Part shown: piece after piece, positions 2,409 to 15,806 of the stretch
Position numbering within the stretch: the first letter of the stretch is position 1
Layout of the letters: each line of letters begins with the position of its first letter
From: Lactobacillus panisapium
GTDB lineage: Bacteria; Bacillota; Bacilli; Lactobacillales; Lactobacillaceae
Direction: 5' to 3'
NCBI RefSeq assembly: GCF_019469265.1
Contig: NZ_CP048268.1
Coordinates: forward strand, 244,001 to 308,000
Length of the DNA stretch: 64,000 nucleotides
Translations under genes and position numbers: made by a program
Notes under the pieces: model-generated
Seen by the model: the letters and a program-made list of their open reading frames with translations, nothing else
Told to the model about the DNA's origin: nothing
The model's database searches: none

Positions 2409-3158
2409 ATGACTGAAATTTTACGAGTAGATCAAGTTACTAAAACCTACGGTAAACGAGGAGAAAAGCAATATCAGGCACTTAAGGGGATTAATTTCGC
2501 CGTTAATTCAGGTGAATTCGTTGCCATCATGGGTGCTTCTGGTTCAGGTAAAACTACTTTGCTTAATATTCTTTCTACACTTGATAAACCGACAACGGGC
2601 CACGTTTTTATTAATCACCAAGACAACAGCACGCTTAATGCCAACCAGCTAGCAGACTTCAGGAGTAAGCAAATTGGTTTTATTTTTCAAGATTTTAATT
2701 TACTGGAAAATTTGACTAACCGCGAAAATATTGCCTTACCGTTGACACTTCAAGGGGTAAAGTCTAGTCGAATTGATCCGTTAGTTGACCGTATTGCTGC
2801 TAGGTTAAGTATTAGTCAGATTATTAATAAATATCCGGCTGAAGTTTCCGGCGGGCAGAAGCAAAGAGTTGCCGCAGCTAGGGCTTTAGTACATGAACCA
2901 GCAATTTTATTAGCTGATGAACCCACTGGAGCTCTTGATTCAAAGAGTGCCCGTGAACTGTTAGATACAATGAGTGACTTAAATACAAACGATGGTATTA
3001 CAACCCTAATGGTTACGCATGATCCACTTGCCGCTAGTTTTGCTAGCCGTATTTTGTTTATTAAAGACGGAAAAATTGGTGAGCAACTACTCAAGCAAGA
3101 TTTACCGAGACAAAAGTTTTATCACCAATTGCTTGAACACTTAGGTACTGAAGAATAG
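2409..3158 (+). CDS. ABC transporter ATPase, BceA/MacB-like
   Basis: 249 residues, a complete ABC ATPase. Walker A GASGSGKT is at residues 42-49, followed by a Q-loop (IFQDFN), the signature VSGGQKQR and Walker B ILLADEPTGALD. The insert before the signature and the 'LNILSTLDKPTTGHV' type sequence belong to the family that drives FtsX-like permeases, used for antimicrobial-peptide sensing or resistance in Firmicutes. Its stop is 10 bases before the first permease start. A single ATPase precedes two permease genes, so it may serve both. Confidence 0.88.
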   Translation: MTEILRVDQVTKTYGKRGEKQYQALKGINFAVNSGEFVAIMGASGSGKTTLLNILSTLDKPTTGHVFINHQDNSTLNANQLADFRSKQIGFIFQDFNLLENLTNRENIALPLTLQGVKSSRIDPLVDRIAARLSISQIINKYPAEVSGGQKQRVAAARALVHEPAILLADEPTGALDSKSARELLDTMSDLNTNDGITTLMVTHDPLAASFASRILFIKDGKIGEQLLKQDLPRQKFYHQLLEHLGTEE

Positions 3159-3168
3159 GGTGAAAATC

Positions 3169-4971
3169 ATGATTTGGAAACTTTCTTTAACGGGCATCAA
3201 AAGCCGACTTAAAAACTATCTCGTTCTTTTTTCAGGCTTAATAGTTGCTAGCATGATCTTTTACATGTTTTTAACGATTGCTATTAATCCTTCTTTTATT
3301 AGTCATGATGTCAATGCCTCAACGGATTATCTAAATTTTACTTTTGCCTTTGGGATCGTTTTATTAGTCCTGATTACTTTTGTTTACTTAATTAATGCCA
3401 ATTCGCTTTTGCTCAGTATGCGCAAGCATGATTACGGTATGTTTATGTCGCTAGGAGCCAAAAGCAGCCGCATCGGGCTATTGATTTTTATCGAAACCTT
3501 AATTACTGGGATATTGGCTACAATTGCAGGTATTGTCTTGGGCTTTGGCTTAACTGCTATTGTGTCACAATTACTCATTACAAAATTAAATTTACAGATT
3601 ACTCACTTTGCTGTGATTTATCCGCCAGCAATTGGCTGGACACTCATTTTCTTCATTTTCATGTTCTTTTGGGGCGCTATTCATAATGTGCGAAAATTAA
3701 CCCACACGCCAATTATTAGCTTACTCAAGGAGGATCAAAAACCTGCTAAACTAGGTAATCATCCGATTAAGCTTGCAGTTGAAGCTGTTTTGGGTCTGCT
3801 ACTATTAGCGGCTGGTTACCATATCTTGGGTCTGCCTTTAAACATGTTTTTACTAATTATTCCAGGTGCACTTATAACAATTGTTGCAGGAACGTACTTT
3901 ATTTTTGATGCCGCGTGTGTTGGCGTCATTAATTTCCTAATTAAAAAAAGATCTCTTTCTTATCGCGGATTGCGCGTTTTCATCTTGGGCCAATTGAAGT
4001 TTCGCCTGCATGACTTAACTAAAATCTTAACTATTATTTCACTGCTATTTGCTTTGGCATTGGGTGCAATCACTGTGGGACTTAACTTCACTACTCTTAA
4101 AGATTTGGGTAAAGAAAGCATCTATTACGACAATATTGTTGTCAGCGCATCGCCCGCAGTTAAAACCGAAGTTGCCAAATTACATATTTCTACTGAGCAA
4201 ACCTACCATTATAAAGAAAATCGCAAGAATTTATTTTTAATGCGTGATGAGCTAAAAAAGCAGCCGGTTAAAGACAAAGAGGCCTATTTAGCAGGTCATG
4301 AACCAACATATAAAACTGTCAATTTAGCACTTAGTGACCTTGCTAAAAGTGATACACATGCAAACAATGCCTTTAGTTCACTACTAGGGACGACTAAGAA
4401 AATTAAACTAGTATCCCATTCTGACTGGCAGAACTTACCCGGTAAGCCTCATTTCTTGTCGCTAATGTTAGTTAAAAATTTCGAACAGGATTACCCAATT
4501 TTATTAAAGATTCAGCAATTGCAACTAAAAGAAAATCCGCATTACCTTAACCAATTTAATGAGAGCAAACCGGTTTTCTATCAATTAATTAGCAATTTCA
4601 GTGGCGGGTTTGAATTTATGGGCTTTTTCTTGGGACTCGCTTTCCTGACCATGCTGGCTTCTACCTTGATGTTTAAGGTACTAAGCGGGGCAGCTAGGGA
4701 CCGTATTCGTTACCAGATGCTTTATCAAATTGGTGCGCGAAGAAGAGTTTTAAGTTCAGCAGTTAAAAGTGAACTGGGTACATTATTCTTGCTGCCTGCG
4801 GTACTAGGAATACTAGATGTTTTATTTGGATTGAAACTATTTAGGATTCTTTTGCCTAATCCGTACCATCACTTATGGATCCCGTTTACAATTTTTATTG
4901 TTTTGTACTTTATCTACTATGCAATCACGGTCAAGCTCTACCAGAAAGTCGTCTTACCACAGGAAAAATAA
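3169..4971 (+). CDS. FtsX-like ABC permease, BceB-type (copy 1)
   Basis: 600 residues with about ten hydrophobic segments and an extracellular loop of roughly 200 residues between membrane segments 8 and 9, as in BceB-type permeases that recognise peptide antibiotics. I prefer the ATG at 3169 over the GTG at 3160. The paralog downstream begins with the same MIWKLSLTGIK, and AGGGTGA lies at the right distance. The two permeases are clearly similar at both ends and diverge in the large extracellular loop. This suggests duplication followed by change in ligand binding. Confidence 0.85.
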   Translation: MIWKLSLTGIKSRLKNYLVLFSGLIVASMIFYMFLTIAINPSFISHDVNASTDYLNFTFAFGIVLLVLITFVYLINANSLLLSMRKHDYGMFMSLGAKSSRIGLLIFIETLITGILATIAGIVLGFGLTAIVSQLLITKLNLQITHFAVIYPPAIGWTLIFFIFMFFWGAIHNVRKLTHTPIISLLKEDQKPAKLGNHPIKLAVEAVLGLLLLAAGYHILGLPLNMFLLIIPGALITIVAGTYFIFDAACVGVINFLIKKRSLSYRGLRVFILGQLKFRLHDLTKILTIISLLFALALGAITVGLNFTTLKDLGKESIYYDNIVVSASPAVKTEVAKLHISTEQTYHYKENRKNLFLMRDELKKQPVKDKEAYLAGHEPTYKTVNLALSDLAKSDTHANNAFSSLLGTTKKIKLVSHSDWQNLPGKPHFLSLMLVKNFEQDYPILLKIQQLQLKENPHYLNQFNESKPVFYQLISNFSGGFEFMGFFLGLAFLTMLASTLMFKVLSGAARDRIRYQMLYQIGARRRVLSSAVKSELGTLFLLPAVLGILDVLFGLKLFRILLPNPYHHLWIPFTIFIVLYFIYYAITVKLYQKVVLPQEK

Positions 4972-5033
4972 GCAAATGAAAAAACTAATCTCTCGCTTAG
5001 ATTTTTTAATACTTTTGCGCTAGGAGAAAAATT

Positions 5034-6827
5034 ATGATTTGGAAATTATCGTTAACCGGAATCAAAAACAGAATGAAAGATTATGTCGTGCTTTTTTCTG
5101 GCTTAATTGTTGCCAGCATGATCTTTTACATGTTCTTGACGATTGCCATTAACCCCGCTTTTCTTGCCAAGGATCTTCAGGTTAACCACTTGAATTACGT
5201 CAACTATATTTTTACTTTTGGCATCGTGTTGTTGATGATTATTACATTCTTTTACCTGCTCTATGCCAATACCTTCTTGTTAAGCATGCGTAAACACGAT
5301 TATGGGATGTATATGATGCTCGGGGCAAAAAGCATGCGGATCAGTCTTCTAATTTTCTGCGAAACCTTATTGACGGGGCTAATTGCGGTAATTGTGGGGA
5401 TTATTTTAGGCTTAGGCTTAACCGCACTTGTTTCTCGGCTGCTAGTCAGCAAGTTGGGTCTAGCAATTAACCACTTTCAGGTAATTTTACCTCGGGCTAT
5501 TTTAGGCACGATTCTTTTCTTTATTGTTATCTTTTTCTTCGGTGCGCTTTTTAATGCGCGCAAGTTAACAAAAACCCAAGTAATCAGCCTGCTGCACGAA
5601 GATCAAACACCCGTTAAGCTGAAGCGGCATCCACTATTACTGCTAGTTGAGGGAATAGCCGGAATTGGCCTGCTTGCTTGCGGCTATTATGTGATGACCC
5701 TGAACCCCAATAATATCTTCAAGATTATTCCCACAGCTCTGATAACAATTGTTGTTGGTTCCTACTTTGTTTTCAATGCGGTCTTCACGTCGATTATTAA
5801 CTTGCTTTTAAAGAATAAAAAAATTTCCTACCGTGGTATTCGCATGTTTACTTTGGGGCAGCTGAAGTTTCGCTTGCATAGCTATACTCGCATTTTAACC
5901 ATGATTTCACTTCTTTTTGCCTTGGCATTAGGTGCAATCACAGTTGGCCTTAATTTTAATTCTCTTAAAGAGACAGTTGCCCAAGGATATTACTATGATG
6001 CAAGTATTTGTAGCGATTCTAAGCCTGTCAAAAAAGAACTGGCAAAGCTGACATTAAAAAGCCAGCAGACATACCATTATAAAGAAGATCGTCAAAAAGC
6101 CTATTTTCAAAGTGCCGAACTGACCAATAAACCACTTAAAAATAAAGAATTAGTTGACTCAAGTACTTCAACCGGCATGATAAAAATGCGCGTTGTAACC
6201 GTGTCTAAGGATAGTCTTGCGCCAATTCTTAGCAATTTCTTTCCCAATACCGGTAAGGTAGTGCAACTGGTAACAAAAGAAAAGTACCGGCAATTGAAGC
6301 AGAAGCCGAAAGCAATTACCTTGATTAGGACGAAAGACTTCGTTCACGACTACCCGCGCATTTTAAAAATAGAGCACATGGAGGTAAAAGAAAACGCAGC
6401 TGCAGCTAATGTAACCAATACTAGTAAAGCTAATGCCTATCAAATGGTAGTCGGCTATGTCAGCGGCTTTGAATTCATGGGTTTCTTTCTCGGGCTAGCC
6501 TTCTTAACCATGCTTGCTTCAACCTTAATGTTTAAGGTACTTAGCGGTGCTTACAATGATCGCTTGCGCTACCAAATGCTGGCCAAAATGGGGGTGAGAA
6601 TCAAATTACTCAGACGCTCAATCATGATGGAAATTGGTGCATTGTTCGCACTGCCCGGCATTTTAGGCATAATTGATGTTCTCTTTGGGCTTAAGCTATT
6701 TAGGACACTGCTAGAAAATCCTTACAGTGGTCTAATATTACCGTTTACCATTTTTATCATTCTTTACCTCTTTTATTATTTATTGACGGTTAAGTTATAT
6801 GAAAAAATCGTCTTAAAGTTTAAGTAG
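5034..6827 (+). CDS. FtsX-like ABC permease, BceB-type (copy 2)
   Basis: 597 residues, a tandem paralog of the preceding permease with the same membrane layout. The N-terminal 60 and C-terminal 120 residues are highly similar, and both copies share a near-identical 'GFEFMGFFLGLAFLTMLAST' stretch. The extracellular loop differs strongly. It starts with ATG after GGAGA, 62 bases after copy 1. Both copies are intact, so this is not a broken gene. They may form separate complexes with the one ATPase, or a heteromeric pair. Confidence 0.85.
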   Translation: MIWKLSLTGIKNRMKDYVVLFSGLIVASMIFYMFLTIAINPAFLAKDLQVNHLNYVNYIFTFGIVLLMIITFFYLLYANTFLLSMRKHDYGMYMMLGAKSMRISLLIFCETLLTGLIAVIVGIILGLGLTALVSRLLVSKLGLAINHFQVILPRAILGTILFFIVIFFFGALFNARKLTKTQVISLLHEDQTPVKLKRHPLLLLVEGIAGIGLLACGYYVMTLNPNNIFKIIPTALITIVVGSYFVFNAVFTSIINLLLKNKKISYRGIRMFTLGQLKFRLHSYTRILTMISLLFALALGAITVGLNFNSLKETVAQGYYYDASICSDSKPVKKELAKLTLKSQQTYHYKEDRQKAYFQSAELTNKPLKNKELVDSSTSTGMIKMRVVTVSKDSLAPILSNFFPNTGKVVQLVTKEKYRQLKQKPKAITLIRTKDFVHDYPRILKIEHMEVKENAAAANVTNTSKANAYQMVVGYVSGFEFMGFFLGLAFLTMLASTLMFKVLSGAYNDRLRYQMLAKMGVRIKLLRRSIMMEIGALFALPGILGIIDVLFGLKLFRTLLENPYSGLILPFTIFIILYLFYYLLTVKLYEKIVLKFK

Positions 6828-6839
6828 TAGCTCGTATTT

Positions 6840-6871
6840 AGCTGTGAATTATTAGTTCACAGCTTTTTTTT
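6840..6871 (+). terminator. Terminator of the Bce-like operon
   Basis: AGCTGTGAA / TTCACAGCT stem, loop of about six bases, then nine T. Confidence 0.85.
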
Positions 6872-6970
6872 ACGGTAAAATTTGGTTGCAAGAAAAGCGC
6901 CTTGCAATAAATATTAAACGAATTAATAAAAACTATTTAAATATTTATAAAATAATTTTAATATTTTTTA

Positions 6971-6999
6971 TTGACATCTTAATTTACTGTGCCTATAAT
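6971..6999 (+). promoter_or_regulatory. Consensus sigma-A promoter of liv leader 1
   Basis: Perfect TTGACA (6971-6976), a 17-base spacer and perfect TATAAT (6994-6999). The sequence from the -10 box to the leader ribosome site is nearly the same as at 11945-11980, showing that the promoter-leader unit is duplicated. Confidence 0.85.
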
Positions 7000-7036
7000 T
7001 CTAAGTATTAAATTAAATTTTGAGGAGGCTATTTTA

Positions 7037-7126
7037 ATGAACAACGAACAAATTAACGCGCAATTGCACATTAAAATAGCTGCTGCTCAAGAAATTATTA
7101 TTGCCTTGTTGTCGAGAAGGACTTAG
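7037..7126 (+). CDS. Leader peptide 1, Ile/Leu-rich attenuator peptide
   Basis: 29 codons with a strong TGAGGAGG site nine bases upstream of the ATG. The peptide has three Ile codons in a row at residues 20-22, then Ala, Leu, Leu, and ends Ser-Arg-Arg-Thr-stop. The last ten residues resemble those of the second leader at 11988 (IIIALLSRRT against LAALLLSRRT). The final codons (bases 7117-7126) also form RNA segment 1 of the downstream hairpin set, which explains why their DNA is conserved. Its role is inferred: ribosome stalling at Ile/Leu codons when charged tRNA is short. Confidence 0.8.
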   Translation: MNNEQINAQLHIKIAAAQEIIIALLSRRT

Positions 7127-7244
7127 CAAACGAGAATTACTAATGGTAATTCACCCAAGTTAAGCCCTTGTTTACGTCTTGATGAATGAGGCTTAACTAA
7201 CATTAGCCTGAAGCCTCATTCATTAACTTGAATGAGGCTTTTTG
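7117..7244 (+). promoter_or_regulatory. Transcription attenuator 1 upstream of livJ
   Basis: Five segments can pair in exclusive ways. Segment 1 (7117-7126) pairs with segment 2 (7160-7169), nine of ten positions. Segment 2 (7158-7166) pairs with segment 3 (7190-7198), nine base pairs. Segment 3 (7181-7194) pairs with segment 4 (7211-7224), 14 pairs. Segment 4 (7211-7222) pairs with segment 5 (7229-7240), 12 pairs, then a U tract: the terminator. A small hairpin (7134-7140 with 7146-7152) lies between 1 and 2. Predicted logic: completed leader translation covers 1, so 2:3 and terminator 4:5 form. A ribosome stalled at Ile/Leu leaves 1:2, then 3:4, and transcription continues into livJ. Confidence 0.82.
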
Positions 7245-7267
7245 TAGGCATGGGATAAAAGGAGAAG

Positions 7268-8470
7268 ATGATGAAAAGGTTTACTAAAAAGGTATTGGGT
7301 GTCCTGACAGCGGGCACAGCAGTATTGATGCTAGCGGGATGTTCAGTTGCCAAAAATGGTGGTAGTGGTGCCGGCACCAAGCAAGACAAGGATACAGTTA
7401 AAATTGGTGTCAACATGGAGCTTTCCGGCACCGTTGCAGGTTACGGTAACGCCGAAAAGCAAGGAATCCAGTTAGCCGTCAGTGAAATTAATAAAGCAGG
7501 TGGAATTAACGTCAATGGTCATAAGAAAAAGATCAAGTTAATCATGCGCGATAATAAATCGTCAATCGCTACATCGGCTTCTGTAGCAGCGCAATTGACG
7601 ACTAAGGACAAGGTTGCGGCAGTGGTGGGACCTGCTACGACTAATGCGGGAACAGCACAAATTCCAAACATTACCAAGGCTGCCGTACCATTTGTCAGCC
7701 CGTCTGCAACTGATCCAAAATTCACCTTGCAAAAAGATGGTAAGGTACAGCAATACGTATTCCGGGCATGTTTCCAAAACAATATTCAAGGTGAGAGTGC
7801 AGCCAAATTTGTCATGGATAAACTGAAGGCAAAGCGCGTAGCAATTTATGCTGACAATTCTAGTGACTACGGTACGGGCTTAGCTAAGGCGTTTAAGAAG
7901 ACCTTTAAAGGCAAGATTGTTGATAATCAGACTTACTCGGCCGGAGATAAGGACTTCAATGCAGTTTTGACTTCGTTTAAAGCTAAAAACGCTGACGTAA
8001 TTTATGTTCCTGGCTACTATACGGAAATCGGCTTAATCATCAAGCAAGCTCGTCAAATGGGCATTAAGGTTCCAATCGTTGGTGGTGACGGGATGTGTGA
8101 CTCAAAACTGGTTCAGATTGCTGGTGCCAAAAATGCCACTAAGATTTTCTACACCACACCATTTTCAACTCGCGTTGCTGCTCAAGATCCGGTTGCTTCC
8201 AAATTTTTAAAAGCTTTTAAAGACCGCTATCATGCAGATGCACCTGCATTCTCAGCTCTAGCGTATGACTCGGTTTACATGGTTAAACAAGCAATCGAAG
8301 ACGAGAAATCTGATGATTCTACTAAGATTGCAGCTGGGTTAGCTAAGCTCAAGGACTTTAAGGGAGTTACGGGCAAAATGACAATCGACAAATACCATAA
8401 TCCAGACGAGCCAATTGTTATTGAAGAAATTACCAATGGCAAAATTAATAATTCATTCAAGATTGAGTAG
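7268..8470 (+). CDS. livJ: Branched-chain amino-acid ABC transporter substrate-binding lipoprotein
   Basis: 400 residues. The lipoprotein signal has a basic start, a hydrophobic core and lipobox LAGC with Cys25 as the lipidated residue. The mature part is a type-1 periplasmic-binding fold (Peripla_BP_6): 'KIGVNMELSG', then 'LAVSEINKAGGINVNG', 'VGPATTNAG' and 'DNSSDYGTGLAK'. It delivers Leu/Ile/Val-type substrates to LivHM; exact specificity is inferred. GGAGA precedes a tandem ATGATG, so the start may be 7268 or 7271. It lies directly behind attenuator 1 and heads the liv operon. A close paralog follows at the operon end (12223). Confidence 0.92.
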   Translation: MMKRFTKKVLGVLTAGTAVLMLAGCSVAKNGGSGAGTKQDKDTVKIGVNMELSGTVAGYGNAEKQGIQLAVSEINKAGGINVNGHKKKIKLIMRDNKSSIATSASVAAQLTTKDKVAAVVGPATTNAGTAQIPNITKAAVPFVSPSATDPKFTLQKDGKVQQYVFRACFQNNIQGESAAKFVMDKLKAKRVAIYADNSSDYGTGLAKAFKKTFKGKIVDNQTYSAGDKDFNAVLTSFKAKNADVIYVPGYYTEIGLIIKQARQMGIKVPIVGGDGMCDSKLVQIAGAKNATKIFYTTPFSTRVAAQDPVASKFLKAFKDRYHADAPAFSALAYDSVYMVKQAIEDEKSDDSTKIAAGLAKLKDFKGVTGKMTIDKYHNPDEPIVIEEITNGKINNSFKIE

Positions 8471-8517
8471 GGTAACTTTTTGTCAGCAGATTTACTAAAT
8501 TAAAGGAGCGATTAAAT

Positions 8518-9396
8518 TTGCAAATAGTTTTACAGCAAATCATTAATGCTTTGTCGCTAGGTTCAATTTACGCCTTACTGGCTTTAGGCTACAGCATGGT
8601 TTACGGCATTATTAAATTGATCAACTTTGCTCATGGCGATATTTACATGCTCGGTGCATTTTTTGCATACTATGCAATTAGCCTGTGGCATTTTAACTTT
8701 ATTACTGCCTTGCTTTCAGCAATGATTGTTGGTGCGATTGCGGGTGTTGTAATCGAATATTTCGCATATCGGCCACTACGTAAATCACCGCGGATAGCTG
8801 TTTTGATTACCGCAATTGGTGTGTCATTTTTACTCGAAAACGGCATGTCCTACCTAGTTGGTTCAAATGCTCGCAGCTTTCCCCAGGTCATGGAACAAGT
8901 TAATTACAATATCGGCGGCGTGATCATTTCCAATGTCCAGGTCTTAATCTTGGCAACGGCTTTAGTTTTAATGCTTTTATTACAAGTTATCATTAAAAAA
9001 ACCAAGATGGGGCGCGCAATGCGTGCCGTTTCGGTTGACCCCGATGCAGCGGAATTAGTTGGCGTTAATGTTAACCACACTATTTCATTTACTTTTGCCT
9101 TGGGCTCAGCACTTGCAGGTGCAGCCGGTGTCCTGATTGGGATGTACTATAACCAAATTGACCCATTAATGGGGATGACGCCAGGAATTAAAGCATTCGT
9201 AGCAGCTGTTTTAGGTGGAATTGGCTCAGTACCTGGAGCATCTCTTGGTGGTTTCCTAATTGGGATATTGGAAACATTTTTCCAATCAATTGGTCTTTCT
9301 GCGTACAAGGATGCCGTGGTTTACTTCGTGTTAATTGTTATTTTGCTCTTTTTACCAGCAGGTATTTTTGGCAAAAATACTAAGGAAAAGGTTTAG
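8518..9396 (+). CDS. livH: Branched-chain amino-acid ABC permease LivH
   Basis: 292 residues, about eight membrane helices, with the LivH-type start 'INALSLGSIYALLALGYSMVYGIIKLINFAHGD' region at residues 8-41 (BPD_transp_2 family). It forms the translocation channel with LivM. It starts at TTG 8518 after AAAGGAG; no nearer ATG fits. 47 bases after livJ and 8 before livM, so one operon. Confidence 0.93.
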   Translation: MQIVLQQIINALSLGSIYALLALGYSMVYGIIKLINFAHGDIYMLGAFFAYYAISLWHFNFITALLSAMIVGAIAGVVIEYFAYRPLRKSPRIAVLITAIGVSFLLENGMSYLVGSNARSFPQVMEQVNYNIGGVIISNVQVLILATALVLMLLLQVIIKKTKMGRAMRAVSVDPDAAELVGVNVNHTISFTFALGSALAGAAGVLIGMYYNQIDPLMGMTPGIKAFVAAVLGGIGSVPGASLGGFLIGILETFFQSIGLSAYKDAVVYFVLIVILLFLPAGIFGKNTKEKV

Positions 9397-9404
9397 GTGG
9401 CAAA

Positions 9405-10361
9405 ATGAAAGCAAATTGGAAATATATTTTGTCGTGGCTTGCAATCATGGTTGCCGGCTTTTATCTAATCAATACGCTGATTATGGTAGGTGTCATTGAC
9501 GACTTCATCGAAAATATGTTAGTTACAATTGGAATTAACATTATTTTGGCTTCGGGATTAAACTTAATTATCGGATTCAGTGGCCAATTTTCGCTAGGTC
9601 ATGCTGGCTTTATGGCAATTGGTGCGTATACGACCGCGATCATTACGCAACATATCAATAGTGAATTAGGCTTTATTGCTTCTGTACTGATTGGAATGGC
9701 GCTAGCGATTATTATTGCTGCCGTCATCGGTACTGCAACCTTTATCAGACTAAAAGGTGATTATTTGGCAATTGCCACTTTAGGTGCTGCCGAAATTATC
9801 AGAAACATTATTAATAATTTGAAAATTACGGGCGGTTCCGCTGGAATGTTTAATATTCCGCAGTTTTGTTCGTGGCCAACTGTTTATATCTTGGTCTGCT
9901 TGACGACCATTGTTTTGATGAATTTCATTCGCTCACGTGATGGTAGAGCGATTAAGGCTGTTCGTGAAGATGAAATTGCTGCTGAAGCAATGGGTATCAA
10001 TACGACTAAGTGGAAATTGGCTGCCTTCGTTTTAGGCGGGGCAACTGCCGCAATTGCCGGTAGTTTACAGGCTTCATACGTCCAGACGATTTCACCTTCT
10101 AATTATGGCATTATGGAATCTATCTCAATTCTGGTAATCGTTGTTTTAGGTGGTGTTGGCAGTATGACCGGAACCTTTGTGGCAGCTACCGTGTTAGGCA
10201 TACTTGATACGGTTTTGCAGAACTTTGGCTCGTTGCGGATGGTGATATACGCAATTGCACTGATTCTGATTATGATTTTCAAACCATCAGGACTGCTGGG
10301 TAACTGGGAATTCTCCCTGAAGAACTTAACGCGTCGTTTTGGTAAAAAAGAGAGGGGCTAA
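9405..10361 (+). CDS. livM: Branched-chain amino-acid ABC permease LivM
   Basis: 318 residues with nine to ten hydrophobic segments and the LivM hallmark 'NLIIGFSGQFSLGHAGFMAIGAY' region (about residues 53-75). Second channel subunit of the Liv transporter. The ATG follows TTAGGTGGC, eight bases after livH, and the gene ends three bases before livG. Confidence 0.93.
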   Translation: MKANWKYILSWLAIMVAGFYLINTLIMVGVIDDFIENMLVTIGINIILASGLNLIIGFSGQFSLGHAGFMAIGAYTTAIITQHINSELGFIASVLIGMALAIIIAAVIGTATFIRLKGDYLAIATLGAAEIIRNIINNLKITGGSAGMFNIPQFCSWPTVYILVCLTTIVLMNFIRSRDGRAIKAVREDEIAAEAMGINTTKWKLAAFVLGGATAAIAGSLQASYVQTISPSNYGIMESISILVIVVLGGVGSMTGTFVAATVLGILDTVLQNFGSLRMVIYAIALILIMIFKPSGLLGNWEFSLKNLTRRFGKKERG

Positions 10362-10364
10362 AGA

Positions 10365-11147
10365 ATGGAACATTTATTGCAAGTTGAGCATGTGGTGCGC
10401 AAATTTGGCGGACTGACAGCCGTTAATGACGTCTCCCTTCACTTAGACAAGCATGAATTAGTTGCTTTAATTGGTCCCAATGGCGCAGGCAAAACTACCT
10501 TGTTTAACCTGCTGACCGGTATGGTTCAGGTAACAAGCGGTAAGATTGATTTGCATGTTGACCAGCAAAACTATGACTTGACGCGAAAAAGTGCTGTTCA
10601 GATAGCTGATTTGGGGCTATCGCGTACTTTCCAAAATATTCGGTTATTTAAAAATCTGACGGTTATGGATAATGTATTAACGGCCATGACCAATGAGTAC
10701 AAAGAGGGCTTTTTAACGACGGTTTTCCGTTTACCTAGTTTTTATCGCACAGAAAAAGAAATGCGAGTTGCGGCTGAAAAACTTTTAGACATTTTTGACT
10801 TGACCGCCAACAAGCAGACTTTGGCCAAAAATTTACCATATGGAACGCAGCGCCGCCTGGAGATTGTTCGGGCACTTGCAACAGAGCCCCAAATTCTCTT
10901 TTTGGATGAGCCGGCTGCAGGGATGAACCCAGAGGAAACAGCAGATTTAACTAATTTGATTAAGCATATTCAACAAGAATTTCAAATTACCGTCTTGTTG
11001 ATTGAGCATGATATGTCCTTAGTCATGAATTTAGCGGAGCGGATTTACGTCCTTGATCAAGGTCAAATGCTTGCCACTGGTACTCCAGAAGAAATTAGGT
11101 CAAATCCGAAGGTAATCGAAGCATACTTAGGAGAAGGTGAAGACTAG
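10365..11147 (+). CDS. livG: Branched-chain amino-acid ABC ATPase LivG
   Basis: 260 residues. Walker A GPNGAGKT and Walker B ILFLDEPAAGMNP with the LivG-type 'RTFQNIRLF' Q-loop. The expected LSGGQ signature is degenerate here ('LPYGTQRRLEI'), which is common in LivG proteins. It ends with the family's 'VIEAYLGEG' tail. It couples ATP hydrolysis to LivHM and is translated just ahead of livF with no gap. Confidence 0.93.
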   Translation: MEHLLQVEHVVRKFGGLTAVNDVSLHLDKHELVALIGPNGAGKTTLFNLLTGMVQVTSGKIDLHVDQQNYDLTRKSAVQIADLGLSRTFQNIRLFKNLTVMDNVLTAMTNEYKEGFLTTVFRLPSFYRTEKEMRVAAEKLLDIFDLTANKQTLAKNLPYGTQRRLEIVRALATEPQILFLDEPAAGMNPEETADLTNLIKHIQQEFQITVLLIEHDMSLVMNLAERIYVLDQGQMLATGTPEEIRSNPKVIEAYLGEGED

Positions 11148-11858
11148 ATGGCAATGCTAAAAGTAAGTGATCTTTCCGTTAATTACGGGGTCATTCAAGC
11201 GGTAAAAGGGGTCAATTTTGAAATCAATGAAGGTGAAATCGTCACCCTTATCGGCGCTAATGGTGCTGGAAAATCAACTATCGTAAAGACGATTTCTGGT
11301 CTGCTCAAACCTAAAGAGGGACAAATTATCTACCAGGGTAAAGACATTGTGCATCAAAAAGCACCACAAATTGTGCTAGATGGGATTTCGCAGGTTCCGG
11401 AAGGACGGCATATTTTTTCAGGCTTAACGGTAATGGAAAACCTGCAAATGGGGGCTTTTTTACAAAAAAATAGTAGTGAAGCCGCCAAGAGCTACCAAGA
11501 AGTGTTTGACCGGTTTCCAATTCTTGCTAAACGCAAGAATCAGGATGCGGCAACTTTATCTGGTGGGGAGCAACAAATGTTGGCTATTGGTCGTGCACTG
11601 ATGGCTAAACCCAAATTATTGCTGCTTGATGAACCGTCAATGGGTCTGTCACCTCTGTTTATCCAGCAAATTTTTACGATTATTAAAGAGTTAAATGAAA
11701 AAGGAACTACGATTCTTTTGATTGAGCAAAATGCTAAACAAGCGTTGTCAATTGCCAATCGGGGTTATGTTTTAGCAACAGGTCAGGTTCAGTTAACAGG
11801 TTCAGGCCATGAATTGCTAGCCAACCCTGAAGTTCAGAAAGTATATTTTGGTGGTTAG
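11148..11858 (+). CDS. livF: Branched-chain amino-acid ABC ATPase LivF
   Basis: 236 residues. Walker A GANGAGKST, the LivF-type 'SQVPEGRHIFSGLTVMENL', signature LSGGEQQ and Walker B LLLLDEPSMGLSP. It forms the ATPase pair with LivG. The ATG abuts the livG stop, with GAAGGTGA as ribosome site; an internal ATG at 11154 is possible. No clear terminator follows before the second promoter-leader module at 11922. Confidence 0.93.
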   Translation: MAMLKVSDLSVNYGVIQAVKGVNFEINEGEIVTLIGANGAGKSTIVKTISGLLKPKEGQIIYQGKDIVHQKAPQIVLDGISQVPEGRHIFSGLTVMENLQMGAFLQKNSSEAAKSYQEVFDRFPILAKRKNQDAATLSGGEQQMLAIGRALMAKPKLLLLDEPSMGLSPLFIQQIFTIIKELNEKGTTILLIEQNAKQALSIANRGYVLATGQVQLTGSGHELLANPEVQKVYFGG

Positions 11859-11921: not shown

Positions 11922-11950
11922 TTGACTTTCTTAAAGCCAATCGCTATAAT
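11922..11950 (+). promoter_or_regulatory. Sigma-A promoter of liv leader 2
   Basis: TTGACT (11922-11927), a 17-base spacer and perfect TATAAT (11945-11950). It is homologous to the leader 1 promoter base by base beyond the -10 box. Confidence 0.8.
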
Positions 11951-11987
11951 TTTAAACATCAAACTAAATTCTGAGGAGGAAATTTCA

Positions 11988-12074
11988 ATGGAAACTAATG
12001 ATCATAATTCGATTGCTATTAAAATGACTTATACTCAGAATTTAGCAGCCTTGTTGTTGTCGCGAAGGACTTAA
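11988..12074 (+). CDS. Leader peptide 2, Leu-rich attenuator peptide
   Basis: 28 codons with a GAGGAGG ribosome site. Leu codons are at residues 19 and 22-24 (three TTG in a row), and the peptide ends Ser-Arg-Arg-Thr-stop like leader 1. The first half is unrelated in residues to leader 1, so only the control codons and the RNA-pairing 3' end are kept. This is the pattern expected of a regulatory leader rather than of a functional small protein. The run here is all Leu, while leader 1 has Ile-Ile-Ile then Leu-Leu. Confidence 0.8.
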   Translation: METNDHNSIAIKMTYTQNLAALLLSRRT

Positions 12075-12092
12075 CGAAATGAATTGCTTTTA
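12065..12092 (+). other. Segment 1 of attenuator 2 and following hairpin arm
   Basis: Bases 12065-12075 overlap the last leader codons and can pair with 12107-12117 at ten of eleven positions. The following arm 12078-12087 pairs with 12093-12102 as a small nested hairpin. The equivalent elements occur after leader 1, and the small hairpin keeps pairing although its bases differ. Confidence 0.6.
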
Positions 12093-12106
12093 GTAATTTA
12101 TTGATG

Positions 12107-12192
12107 GTTAAGCCCTTGTTTGCGTCTTAATGAATGGGGCTTAACTACTTAGTAACAATGAGCCTCGTTCATTAAATGAACGAGGCTTTTTT
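12107..12192 (+). promoter_or_regulatory. Transcription attenuator 2 upstream of the second livJ
   Basis: Segment 2 (12107-12114) pairs with segment 3 (12138-12145). Segment 3 (12129-12141) pairs with segment 4 (12161-12173), 13 pairs including two G-U. Segment 4 (12161-12172) pairs with segment 5 (12176-12187), 12 Watson-Crick pairs, followed by six U. In the terminator the centre pair is G-C (CGTTC/GAACG) where attenuator 1 has A-T (CATTC/GAATG). This compensatory change supports a real RNA stem. The logic is the same as for attenuator 1. Confidence 0.8.
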
Positions 12193-12222
12193 ATTGCCAC
12201 TAGTAGTTTAAAGGAGAAAATA

Positions 12223-13419
12223 ATGAATAAGTTTACTAAAAAAATGCTGGGAGTAATGACTGCCTCAGCTGCCGTGATAATGATGTCAGGATGTAGTGTC
12301 GCGAAGAATAGCAGTAATGCGGGAACAAAGCAAGATCATGCGGTAGTAAAAATTGGAGTTAACATGGAACTGTCAGGCGCAGCCTCCGGTTATGGCGAAG
12401 CCGAAAAACAGGGTATTCAACTAGCTGCCAGTGAAATAAACAAAGCGGGTGGAATCGACGTTAATGGTCATAAAAAGAAAATTAAACTAATAATTCGTGA
12501 TAATAAAACGGCTATTGCCACTTCGGCTTCAGTAGCGGCGCAATTGACAACAAAGGATAAAGTAGCGGCCATTGTTGGTCCAGCTACGACTAATGCCGGA
12601 ACTGCTCAGATACCTAATATAACTAAGGCAGCCGTTCCTAGTGTTAGTCCATCAGCCACGGATCCCAAATTTACTTTACAAAAAGATGGTAAGGTTCAAC
12701 CATACGTCTTTCGTGCCTGCTATCAAAATAACTTCCAGGGTGGCAGCGCAGCGAAATTTGTCTTTAATCAGTTAAAGGCAAAGAGAGTTGCAATTTTAGC
12801 TGATAATTCAAGTGATTATGGCACTGGTTTGGCTAAGGCCTTTAAAAAGGCATATCAAGGCAAAATCGTTGATAGTCAAACATTTTCAGCAGGTGACAAA
12901 GACTTCAATGCCATTTTAACTTCATTTAAATCCAAAAAAGTTGATGCAATATATGTTCCTGGATATTACACAGAAGCTGGTTTAATCATCAAGCAAGCGC
13001 GGCAAATGGGGATTAAAGTTCCAATCGTTGGTAGTGATGGCATGGCCGATCCTAAATTAGCCCAAATTGCTGGTAATAAGAATGCAACTAAGATCTACTA
13101 CACGACACCATTTTCTGTTCGGGCAGCTGCCAAGGATCCAGTTGCTGCTAAGTTTATGAAGGCTTATAAGGCGCGTTATCACGAACAAGCACCGACTTTT
13201 TCAGCCCTTGCCTATGATGCGGTTTATATGATTAAAGAAGCAATTGAAACGGGTAAATCGGATGATTCAGCTAAGATTGCAACCAATTTAGCCAAGATTA
13301 AAGACTTTACCGGAGTTGCTGGCAAAATAACGGTTGACCAAAAGCACAACCCGGAAAAGCCAATTGCGACAGAAGAACTGACTAATGGACAGGTAAGCAA
13401 TTCATTTAAAATTGAATAA
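12223..13419 (+). CDS. livJ: Second branched-chain amino-acid substrate-binding lipoprotein (livJ paralog)
   Basis: 398 residues. Lipobox MSGC with Cys24 as the lipidated residue, then the same type-1 binding fold as the first livJ. The two align end to end, with many identical blocks ('KKIKLI', 'SASVAAQLTTKDKVAA', 'ATDPKFTLQKDGKVQ'). They differ at several positions near the presumed ligand pocket, such as FVSP against SVSP. It is probably a recent duplicate that shares LivHMGF and widens or tunes specificity. It is under its own promoter and attenuator, so it can be expressed apart from the operon. Terminator follows. Confidence 0.9.
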   Translation: MNKFTKKMLGVMTASAAVIMMSGCSVAKNSSNAGTKQDHAVVKIGVNMELSGAASGYGEAEKQGIQLAASEINKAGGIDVNGHKKKIKLIIRDNKTAIATSASVAAQLTTKDKVAAIVGPATTNAGTAQIPNITKAAVPSVSPSATDPKFTLQKDGKVQPYVFRACYQNNFQGGSAAKFVFNQLKAKRVAILADNSSDYGTGLAKAFKKAYQGKIVDSQTFSAGDKDFNAILTSFKSKKVDAIYVPGYYTEAGLIIKQARQMGIKVPIVGSDGMADPKLAQIAGNKNATKIYYTTPFSVRAAAKDPVAAKFMKAYKARYHEQAPTFSALAYDAVYMIKEAIETGKSDDSAKIATNLAKIKDFTGVAGKITVDQKHNPEKPIATEELTNGQVSNSFKIE

Positions 13420-13538: not shown

Positions 13539-14117
13539 TTATTTACGGTAGATTTTTTTAACTTTTTTAATATCAAGTGGCTGAATGGTATATTTGCACT
13601 CAGGATCCATAACTGATGGCGCTTTTTTATAATGACTAAGGCCAATAGCGTGACCCAATTCATGTTCAACCACTTTGACAATGTCTTCATGAGTCAAAAT
13701 GATTTTTGAATGGTTTTGCAAGTAAAATTGATTTAACAAGATGGTGGCATCATGCATTCGCTTATTCTTAAGCTTGTAATGCCATGAAGTATACCCAGCA
13801 AAGTCGGTGGTGGTATTGTACCAAGGCATAATGACAATCTTAGCCTTATTAGGCTTCTTGGTCTTAACAAACGTAAACGCCTTGGTTTTGTTCCATGCCT
13901 TAATTGCGTCGTTTGAAGCGGCAATTAAATCCTTGTTTTTACCTAGTTGTAAGTAAACAGTTGCCTTAGCTTTATCCCAACGCCGGTAAGTGGTTGCTTT
14001 AGCCGCAGCGTTTTGGGTCGGTATCACAGGATTGTTAACAGTAAAGCAGCTTCCGATAGCTGCTGAAACCAATATTGTACTAATAAATTTATTTATAAAA
14101 TGATATGTCCTATTCAT
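13539..14117 (-). CDS. Exported matrixin-like zinc metalloprotease (copy 1)
   Basis: 192 residues. The hydrophobic N-terminal signal (about residues 8-24) ends in Ile-Gly-Ser-Cys24, so it may be a lipoprotein although the lipobox is atypical. The C-terminal half carries the metzincin zinc site HELGHAIGLSH (152-162, the full HExxHxxGxxH) and a following Met-turn (Met170 in 'SVMDPE'), the hallmarks of matrixin (Peptidase_M10). The catalytic Glu is present. There is no long propeptide. The substrate is unknown: extracellular peptides or surface proteins are likely. A paralog lies at 15138. Confidence 0.8.
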   Translation of the reverse strand: MNRTYHFINKFISTILVSAAIGSCFTVNNPVIPTQNAAAKATTYRRWDKAKATVYLQLGKNKDLIAASNDAIKAWNKTKAFTFVKTKKPNKAKIVIMPWYNTTTDFAGYTSWHYKLKNKRMHDATILLNQFYLQNHSKIILTHEDIVKVVEHELGHAIGLSHYKKAPSVMDPECKYTIQPLDIKKVKKIYRK

Positions 14118-15137: not shown

Positions 15138-15806
15138 CTAATTTGCATATAGCTTTTTGACGTTTTGAATGTCAATATCTTGAATTGGGTAAATTGAACC
15201 AGTTGGGTACATGACAGATTGACCATTATTATGTTTAAGGCCGATTGCATGTCCTAATTCATGTTCAACGGTATTGACTACCCGTTCATAACTATAATTG
15301 TATGAGGAGAAATTATCAAGGTAGTAAGTGTTTAATTTAGTATCAGCTGAGAATAATAAGCCGCTTTTTACATAGTAATGAAAAGTTGTGTAGCCAGCAT
15401 AATTGGTGTTTGGACTATAAACTTGCTCGACTGTGATATCTGCGTTTTTCTTGTTCTTAGTTTTAACAAAGGTAAAGGCTCCGGTGTCATTCCAAGTCTT
15501 GATTGCTTCATCGGAAGCAGAAAGCAAGTTTTTGTTACCGTCTAAGTCAAGATAAACAGTGGCTTTTGGCTTTGGCCATCTCCAATCAGTAGAAGCATTA
15601 ACCTTTTTAGTTTTCTTAGCAGACTTCTTAGCATGCTTTTTTGCTCGCTTAGCCTTTTTGACTTTTTTGGCTTTTTTCGCATAAACGACCTGATTTGGAT
15701 TACTGGATAAGATATTGTTGTCAAGTGGTTCAAAACATCCGCTGATAGCGATAACGGCAATTAAAGCACAAGCTAGTTTATTTAAAAAATGGTGAAAGTT
15801 CCTCAT
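15138..15806 (-). CDS. Exported matrixin-like zinc metalloprotease (copy 2, lysine-rich linker)
   Basis: 222 residues. The signal ends in Ile-Ser-Gly-Cys24, a good lipobox, so it is probably a lipoprotein. Residues of about 43-70 are an extreme Lys/Ala-rich linker (AKKAKKVKKAKRAKKHAKKS) that may bind teichoic acids or span the wall. The protease domain carries HELGHAIGLKH (182-192) and Met199 in 'SVMYPT'. It shares the domain plan 'KATVYL-LG-NK-LI/LSAS-DAIK-WN' with copy 1, so the pair arose by duplication. Confidence 0.8.
   Translation of the reverse strand: MRNFHHFLNKLACALIAVIAISGCFEPLDNNILSSNPNQVVYAKKAKKVKKAKRAKKHAKKSAKKTKKVNASTDWRWPKPKATVYLDLDGNKNLLSASDEAIKTWNDTGAFTFVKTKNKKNADITVEQVYSPNTNYAGYTTFHYYVKSGLLFSADTKLNTYYLDNFSSYNYSYERVVNTVEHELGHAIGLKHNNGQSVMYPTGSIYPIQDIDIQNVKKLYAN

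Follow-up and report, generated by a model that had tools for sequence, protein, structure and literature searches.

A candidate ribosome-mediated attenuator with a relay helix upstream of the liv operon of Lactobacillus panisapium, and its relatives among the Bacilli

The livJHMGF operon of Lactobacillus panisapium lies in a 64,000 nucleotide stretch of DNA, the whole of which is here termed the window, and its upstream region raises the question of how the uptake of branched-chain amino acids (BCAAs) might be matched to their supply. No CodY match was found in the genome (0/1), with the B. subtilis and L. lactis controls both being detected, and as the CodY gene was not found the operon cannot be placed among those under CodY control. 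An IlvD match was likewise not found in this genome and was recovered in 14/14 controls; we infer that the host is a BCAA auxotroph. In a genome with neither a CodY nor an IlvD match, a sensor of tRNA charging placed on an importer is plausible. The named species nearest on the basis of LivJ are L. apis, L. helsingborgensis and L. bombicola, which are bee-gut species.

The region upstream of livJ (positions 6971 to 7243; copy 1) comprises a promoter, a Shine-Dalgarno sequence, a leader of 29 codons, RNA segments that pair in mutually exclusive ways and an intrinsic terminator (Table 1). The promoter is the sole 12/12 match of the promoter scan within positions 6000 to 8500, and the leader carries Ile codons at 7094 to 7102, an Ala codon (GCC) at 7103, Leu codons at 7106 to 7111, which form part of segment 1a, and a TAG stop codon at 7124. 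The terminator at 7211 to 7240 is plain on folding (-19.5 kcal/mol) and was not listed by the terminator scan of this region, probably because AA:UU pairs lengthen its stem into the T run. Scans and folding thus bear out the anatomy proposed in an earlier sequence-only reading of this DNA, namely a perfect promoter, a 29-codon Ile/Leu open reading frame, exclusive segments and a terminator before livJ. The loop between segments 2 and 3 (7169 to 7181 and its counterparts in relatives), which is UUUGCGUCUU-like, is strongly conserved although it belongs to none of the assigned helices, and is perhaps a pause or protein site.

Table 1. Features of the two leader elements and adjoining genes, with positions counted from the first nucleotide of the window
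Feature	Positions	Strand	Basis
Copy 1 promoter, sigma-70 type, TTGACA-17-TATAAT, 12/12, 17-nt spacer	6971..6999	+	promoter scan
Copy 1 leader Shine-Dalgarno, GAGGAGG	7022..7028	+	
Copy 1 leader ORF, 29 codons, MNNEQINAQLHIKIAAAQEIIIALLSRRT then stop, ending IIIALLSRRT-stop	7037..7126	+	
Copy 1 regulatory codons, Ile-Ile-Ile-Ala-Leu-Leu	7094..7111	+	sequence and L/I/V codon bins of 55 leaders
Copy 1 segment 1a, GCC UUG UUG UCG AGA; putative partner of segment 3 when ribosome absent (default termination)	7103..7117	+	
Copy 1 segment 1b, AGGACUUAGC, putative relay; partner segment 2; overlaps Arg-Thr-stop	7118..7127	+	
Spacer hairpin, in Lactobacillus copies, variable elsewhere	7134..7152	+	
Copy 1 segment 2, GUUAAGCCCU	7159..7168	+	
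Copy 1 segment 3, AUGAAUGAGGCUUAAC	7182..7197	+	
Copy 1 segment 4, AAGCCUCAUUCAU	7211..7223	+	
Copy 1 segment 5 with U tract; pairs with segment 4 as intrinsic terminator	7230..7243	+	folding, pairing counts
livJ, first gene of the putatively controlled operon livJHMGF (to 11858), Peripla_BP_6 binding protein	7268..8470	+	Pfam
livH, livM, livG, livF	8518..11858	+	best NCBIfam matches, under curated cut-offs
Copy 2 promoter, TTGACT-17-TATAAT	11922..11950	+	by eye
Copy 2 leader ORF, METNDHNSIAIKMTYTQNLAALLLSRRT then stop	11988..12074	+	
Copy 2 segment 1b	12066..12075	+	
Copy 2 segment 2	12106..12117	+	
Copy 2 segment 3	12129..12145	+	
Copy 2 terminator, segments 4 and 5 plus T tract	12160..12193	+	
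livJ paralogue 3' of copy 2	12223..13419	+	

Folding of the copy 1 RNA from 7006 to 7250 yielded -77.5 kcal/mol (z -7.45), with 0/200 dinucleotide shuffles equally stable. In this free RNA, segment 1a pairs with segment 3 and its 5' edge, thereby enclosing the 1b:2 helix. Once the leader is removed, either up to 7111 (z -6.16; 0/200 shuffles as stable) or through its end (7128 to 7250; z -7.87; 0/200 shuffles as stable), the fold shifts to 2:3 and 4:5. This is the outcome that the sequence-only reading had predicted for a masked leader, and the pairings that it named (1:2, 2:3, 3:4 and 4:5) stand, with the 1a:3 pairing of the free RNA being absent from its list. As a read-out of the switch, full-length equilibrium folding of copy 1 is uninformative.

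Building on the anatomy, conservation, pairing, codon placement and kinship documented here, the element very probably represents a ribosome-mediated transcription attenuator which senses charged tRNA-Ile and tRNA-Leu through six strands (1a, 1b, 2, 3, 4 and 5), and for which we infer the following order of co-transcriptional folding, stalling and direction of response. Under starvation, a ribosome held on the Ile/Leu codons would mask 1a and leave 1b free; 1b:2 would form once segment 2 is made, leaving segment 3 free to form the 3:4 antiterminator, and livJ would be transcribed. Under conditions of plenty, a ribosome beyond the last Leu codon would mask 1b, 2:3 would form and 4:5 would terminate transcription. 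With no ribosome on the leader, 1a:3 closed around 1b:2 would hold segment 3 and 4:5 would again terminate, such that the default state would be off. Segment 1b would act as a relay, linking the ribosome to an otherwise classical module of pre-emptor, antiterminator and terminator. By analogy, an off state in the absence of translation would agree with the Listeria Rli60 leader, where start-codon and ribosome binding site mutations are described to lower ilvD transcription in low-BCAA medium; a terminator mutation raised ilvD transcription in the other minimal medium (PMC5864092). Similarly, the proposed starvation state would agree with a Leu-to-stop change in the S. aureus leader, selected without valine and predicted to relieve repression (PMC5794164), as a ribosome halted there would leave 1b free.

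The element is not unique within the window. A diverged second copy (11922 to 12193) with the same layout precedes a livJ paralogue, and its terminator differs from that of copy 1 by one compensated change from A-U to G-C. Alignment A4 comprises 55 distinct elements, both window copies included, from 52 of 69 sources; it omits thirteen near-identical copies or repeats, L049, L051 and L062 (segment 1 out of register) and L009 (no match), and was fitted on the 2:3 and 4:5 helices and the spacer hairpin, with 1b:2 and 3:4 left out of the fit. Alignment A3 (77 rows, six antisense or fragmentary) was kept out of the counts, and A6 (without L099) was used in place of A5, which held antisense rows. 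The leader open reading frame and an SD-like site occur in 55/55 elements, and this, together with the second copy and its compensated terminator pair, indicates that the arrangement is more than chance.

Pairing was scored across these 55 elements against partners slid out of register. The 1b:2 helix was paired in 84.2 % of cells (slid partners 19.9 to 49.2 %), and both sides had changed in five of its ten pairs; column pair 31:109, for example, is UA in 29, CG in 18, UG in five and another combination in three elements. Pairing reached 96.5 % for 2:3 (slid 62.5 % or less), 81.5 % for 3:4 (slid 55.6 % or less) and 98.5 % for 4:5 (slid 58.1 % or less), the last with 8/11 pairs changed on both sides. 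Depending on the measure, the observed pairing was reached by 0 to 14 of 500 shuffles for 1b:2, 0 to 1 for 2:3, 0 to 19 for 3:4 and 0 for 4:5; the slid controls carry the weight, since related sequences can outperform shuffles without any structure. The 1b:2 helix has flaws, in that an A.C mismatch is conserved in 46/55 elements and pairing is lost two positions away in 22/55; leaders of leuA and ilvD often have A-U in place of the A.C. The codons chosen in 1a give stronger pairing to segment 3 than the average of their synonymous alternatives in 51/55 elements (p ≤ 0.05 in two), which lends modest backing to the 1a:3 helix. An antiterminator (3:4) and an intrinsic terminator (4:5) which are mutually exclusive, as an attenuator requires, are present. 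The sequence-only reading had named the lack of a conserved leader or pairing in relatives as a result that would count against its attenuator; both proved to be conserved, and the comparative evidence supports an attenuator with a translatable Ile/Leu leader.

The position of the ribosome at which the switch is computed to turn coincides closely with the BCAA codons. Among the 55 leaders, the fraction of Leu, Ile or Val (L/I/V) codons in the bins from -24 to -9 relative to 1b was 0.91, 0.60, 0.56, 0.93, 0.98 and 0.58, as against 203/836 codons (24 %) upstream of about -33, and the regulatory codons are hence clustered at the switch point, as an attenuator demands. In copy 1 RNA ending at segment 2, a 1b:2 helix of about 9.7 bp was computed with the ribosome on any of the three Ile codons or on the Ala codon; it also formed with the ribosome on the first Leu codon at footprints of 9 to 11 nt, and comprised 5.9 to 8.6 bp on the second Leu codon and 0 to 1.9 bp at the first Arg codon. 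At footprints of 9, 11 and 13 nt, the last codon permitting 1b:2 lay -2 to +2 codons from the last BCAA codon in 55/55 elements, and a stop codon in the A site left 1b:2 with less than 1 bp in 49, 50 and 50 of 55 elements, respectively. Exposure of segment 3 peaked with the first free base at -20 to -4 from 1b in 55/55 elements. In RNA extending to segment 3, this segment was unpaired to a mean fraction of 0.29 with the leader free (1a:3 of about 8 to 9 bp); the value peaked at 0.43 with the ribosome edge at -18, where 1a is being masked and 1b is free, and was 0.15 once 1b was masked; the modelled effect of the ribosome on segment 3 exposure at equilibrium would thus be real but modest. L/I/V codons make up 108/306 of those in the exposure range (edge -20 to -4), compared with the upstream proportion given above; the BCAA codon cluster lies slightly downstream of this range, which counts against the relay reading.

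These computations bear on a simpler scheme, that of a trp-type attenuator with four segments, in which the stalled ribosome would mask segment 2, 3:4 would form and 1b:2 would be a mere pause hairpin. The 3:4 and 4:5 helices would suffice as its antiterminator and terminator, and the published Rli60 model (PMC5864092) has four segments. However, segment 2 of copy 1 starts 32 nt past the stop codon, out of reach of a ribosome stalled on the Ile/Leu codons, while 1b:2 covaries and disappears no more than two codons from the last BCAA codon, and the scheme is accordingly unlikely. The relay reading makes a demand of its own. In copy 1 at equilibrium, 2:3 (16 bp, -14.2 kcal/mol) takes segment 3 even with a stalled ribosome, 1b:2 contributing only -8.8 kcal/mol, and the free fraction of segment 3 is 0.10 to 0.21 with the ribosome on the Ile/Leu codons (13-nt footprint). 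As 2:3 is so much the stronger, read-through in copy 1 would need the earlier-formed 1b:2 to resist displacement, and folding kinetics would be essential. In copy 2, the free fraction is 0.55 at one place, namely the Ala codon with a 13-nt footprint or the run's first Leu codon with an 11-nt footprint, and otherwise 0.22 to 0.48 on the Leu codons.

At the end of the leader, an AGGAC motif is retained in nearly all elements (A 52, G 55, G 55, A 54 and C 53 of 55), in part by selection, as the 55 elements were picked with a model already containing it. The leader stop codon starts between -6 and +26 nt from this motif, ahead of it in six leaders, and the three reading frames are represented by 30, 24 and one of the 55 leaders. 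As the motif stays fixed while frame and stop position shift, the shared 'SRRT' end reflects a constraint on the RNA, which strongly supports the proposal to this effect in the sequence-only reading; constraint at the nucleotide level explains the likeness of leader ends without a conserved peptide. These shifts of frame and stop, and the facts that leuA leaders end 5' of the motif and that the N-termini are unalike, stand against the alternative that the leader product itself acts, as a small protein or arrest peptide whose C-terminus is conserved, and that the RNA pairings are secondary. This alternative is highly improbable even though ALL(L)SRRT-like ends are common to many Lactobacillus livJ leaders.

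The distribution of the element was explored with covariance model R1, built from eight Lactobacillus livJ leaders, including both window copies. At E ≤ 0.1 it matched 34/75 genomes of the genus and 84/301 genomes of the family, in 23/40 genera, and those weak matches that were read were mostly not elements. LivJ was present at 22/30 genus loci and at 25/27 of the best new family loci. The genus holds 36 livJ places, spread over 27/75 genomes, and an R1 element lies directly 5' of 31 of these, comprising every livJ with at least 72 % identity, although several of the 31 leaders are training sequences or near copies. The remaining five livJ genes (52 to 54 % identity; L137 to L141) have no R1 match and are preceded by a leader of unrelated sequence, for example MKCQMCQQMNNAMLFSAAVITLLQIM followed by a stop codon. 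These five nonetheless display five segments in the same order and with the same exclusive pairings (GAGCTC-type segments), and their free folds include an outer helix of leader codons around a 1b:2 hairpin (5/5) and a terminator hairpin (5/5). Either extreme drift or independent origin could account for them.

The recurrence of this layout in unrelated sequence, along with the fold z-scores of copy 1, the conservation and the covariation, weighs against an unregulated terminator with chance hairpins and constitutive partial termination; such an origin is very unlikely, although weak model matches do include ordinary terminators, for example 5' of ribD behind an FMN-riboswitch-like leader (by eye). 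T-boxes are common in the Lactobacillaceae. A metabolite riboswitch or T-box, suggested by a structured 5' UTR and terminator before an amino-acid operon, is barely credible given the BCAA leader with SD-like site in 55/55 elements and an Rfam search which gave no match at gathering in the window and, on 6900 to 7300, none credible at E ≤ 5 and no T-box (RF00230). Weak Rfam matches near the element at relaxed limits looked like chance and were set aside.

The strong genus matches to R1 (E ≤ 2.9e-9) number 37, of which 31 precede livJ and six precede SBP_bac_5 binding proteins, as identified by Pfam in 6/6; the one scanned with NCBIfam was nearest to Opp4A, below its cut-off. At these six loci (L072 to L075, L033 and L037), an attenuator 5' of Opp-type genes would tie peptide uptake to Ile/Leu supply. 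Eight further R1 matches that were read comprise four elements preceding leuA (L071, L077, L078 and L083), one preceding an SBP_bac_3 amino-acid ABC protein (L080) and three non-elements, and L096 is a further element preceding leuA. The leuA version (all five loci) is compact, with a stop codon that starts 6 to 7 nt 5' of an AGGAC or AGGAU motif. Rejected candidates include L079, L081, L082, L110, L116 to L119, L121, L122, L124 to L126, L128 and L135, which are plain terminators or gene ends with no credible BCAA leader, and L039 and L040, with no LivJ or BCAA gene adjoining. No LivJ match was found at loci L041 to L044, and no leader was found at the livJ relatives present in Streptococcus (L011) and Proteobacteria (L012). 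At L009 (Lacticaseibacillus), where R1 has no match at E ≤ 0.001, a leader and segments resembling these can be made out by eye. The Secundilactobacillus livJ stretch (L008:1475-1736) holds a T-box-like element (83.4 bits, gathering 93).

Outside the family, model R2, built from the 55 Lactobacillaceae elements with no staphylococcal rows, found matches at E ≤ 0.01 in 44/345 order genomes and 17/348 class genomes; at least ten of the weak matches were plain terminators or gene ends. Among the loci listed, a leader and segments precede ilvD at L100, L103, L105, L108 and L111 (Pfam), L112 (NCBIfam) and L113 to L115 (by eye). Other non-Lactobacillaceae elements lie 5' of livJ-type Peripla_BP_6 proteins (L090, L097 and L098), branched-chain aminotransferase (ilvE; L092, L093 and L123), leuA (L120), Opp-type permeases (L101, L106 and L109) and SBP_bac_5 (L107). 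Two further loci place an element 5' of an SBF-family symporter (L102) and, unexpectedly, of a PTS EIIC protein (L104).

R2 finds four staphylococcal ilvD leaders (E 2.8e-6 to 6.2e-6). The genus concerned (g108) was identified as Staphylococcus by RNAIII, detected in 9/9 of its genomes tested, those four included, and in 0/14 controls; RNAIII was not found in the one tested genome of genus g150. The leaders, for example MTNLNTQHQPTTSNIIILLYSLGLER followed by a stop codon, fit that reported for S. aureus ilvD, which has 26 residues with three Ile and then two Leu (PMC5794164). The Rfam rli60 model scored 111.4 and 87.9 bits on two staphylococcal leaders (gathering 60) and 37.7 to 41.0 bits on three of four other ilvD leaders, L111 being unmatched. 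These scores and the R2 matches indicate that the element is akin to Rli60 and to the ilvD attenuator of staphylococci, and a core shared with the latter is recognised under a single covariance model (R2, E about 3e-6; also R3). Model R3, built from 31 elements including non-family groups and three staphylococcal rows, matched 38/398 class genomes, 29 of the 38 in Staphylococcus; in a phylum-wide draw of 199 genomes it matched the L. panisapium genome alone, and at this sensitivity the element appears to be confined to Bacilli among the genomes searched. The sequence-only reading is supported in its interpretation as an attenuator, but it overlooked this kinship as well as the second window copy and the leuA, Opp-type, ilvD and ilvE targets.

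Leader-peptide attenuation has long been considered rare in the Firmicutes. Enterobacterial leu, ilv and trp attenuators follow the stalled-ribosome principle with a layout of protector, pre-emptor and terminator; principle and layout are common to the present element, which adds a relay segment between ribosome and pre-emptor and has importers among its targets. A BCAA leader peptide was reportedly predicted for the Lactococcus lactis leu leader by Godon and colleagues in 1992. That leader, cited as a prediction in PMC5794164, is likened here by description, being a predicted BCAA leader in a lactic acid bacterium but serving a biosynthetic operon. According to PMC2965389, before its hisS cases such attenuation was unshown outside Proteobacteria and Actinobacteria, ermC excepted; the Firmicutes cases named in PMC5794164, PMC5864092, PMC2965389 and PMC9413887 are ilvD of Staphylococcus and of Listeria, the leu leader predicted in L. 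lactis, and his/hisS leaders.

The closest known systems are those of ilvD. The staphylococcal ilvD (ilv-leu) leader (Kaiser et al. 2018, PMC5794164) has in common an Ile/Leu run, an AGGACU...AGUCCU...GAAUGGGACUU core and a terminator. It differs in controlling a biosynthetic operon rather than a transporter, in being subject to CodY, of which there is no match here, and in its published antiterminator, where GAAUGG pairs with the terminator tail instead of 3:4. Listeria Rli60 (RF02414; Brenner et al. 2018, PMC5864092) is likewise a ribosome-mediated attenuator before ilvD, with published four-segment logic in place of a relay. The window element scores 19.2 bits (E 4.7) against RF02414, far below the gathering value of 60, and falls outside that family as defined; this match was rejected as evidence of kinship, as it aligns 1b out of register with segment 3 of the model. 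Among the matches listed in full-text literature that included few subscription papers, no lactobacillar attenuator of liv, leu or Opp genes was described, nor was a common family, which leaves uncontradicted the remark in the sequence-only reading that none was known for a lactobacillar liv transporter. The principle is old, and the element would add to it a relay helix, a default-off helix and new targets.

In Lactobacillaceae, Staphylococcus and further families of Bacilli, one type of element thus stands 5' of BCAA importers, biosynthetic genes and Opp-type genes. It could provide a testable account of Ile/Leu sensing in a bacterium with no CodY or IlvD match, and suggests that the fold of the staphylococcal ilvD leader, and perhaps that of Rli60, be revised to include relay and default-off helices. 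Whether a single ancestral family of leader-peptide RNAs makes tRNA charging the common signal for BCAA import, synthesis and transamination and for peptide uptake across the Bacilli, and forms the main BCAA regulon in Lactobacillaceae lacking CodY, is evenly balanced; its hallmarks would be the relay helix 1b:2, where the frame drifts and the motif is fixed, and the nested default-off helix 1a:3.

Just 5' of the liv leader (2409 to 6827), an ABC ATPase is followed by two paralogous FtsX-type permeases. Two small paralogues matching Peptidase_M10 (matrixin), with HELGHAIGL-type motifs, are encoded on the reverse strand at 13539 to 14117 and 15138 to 15806.
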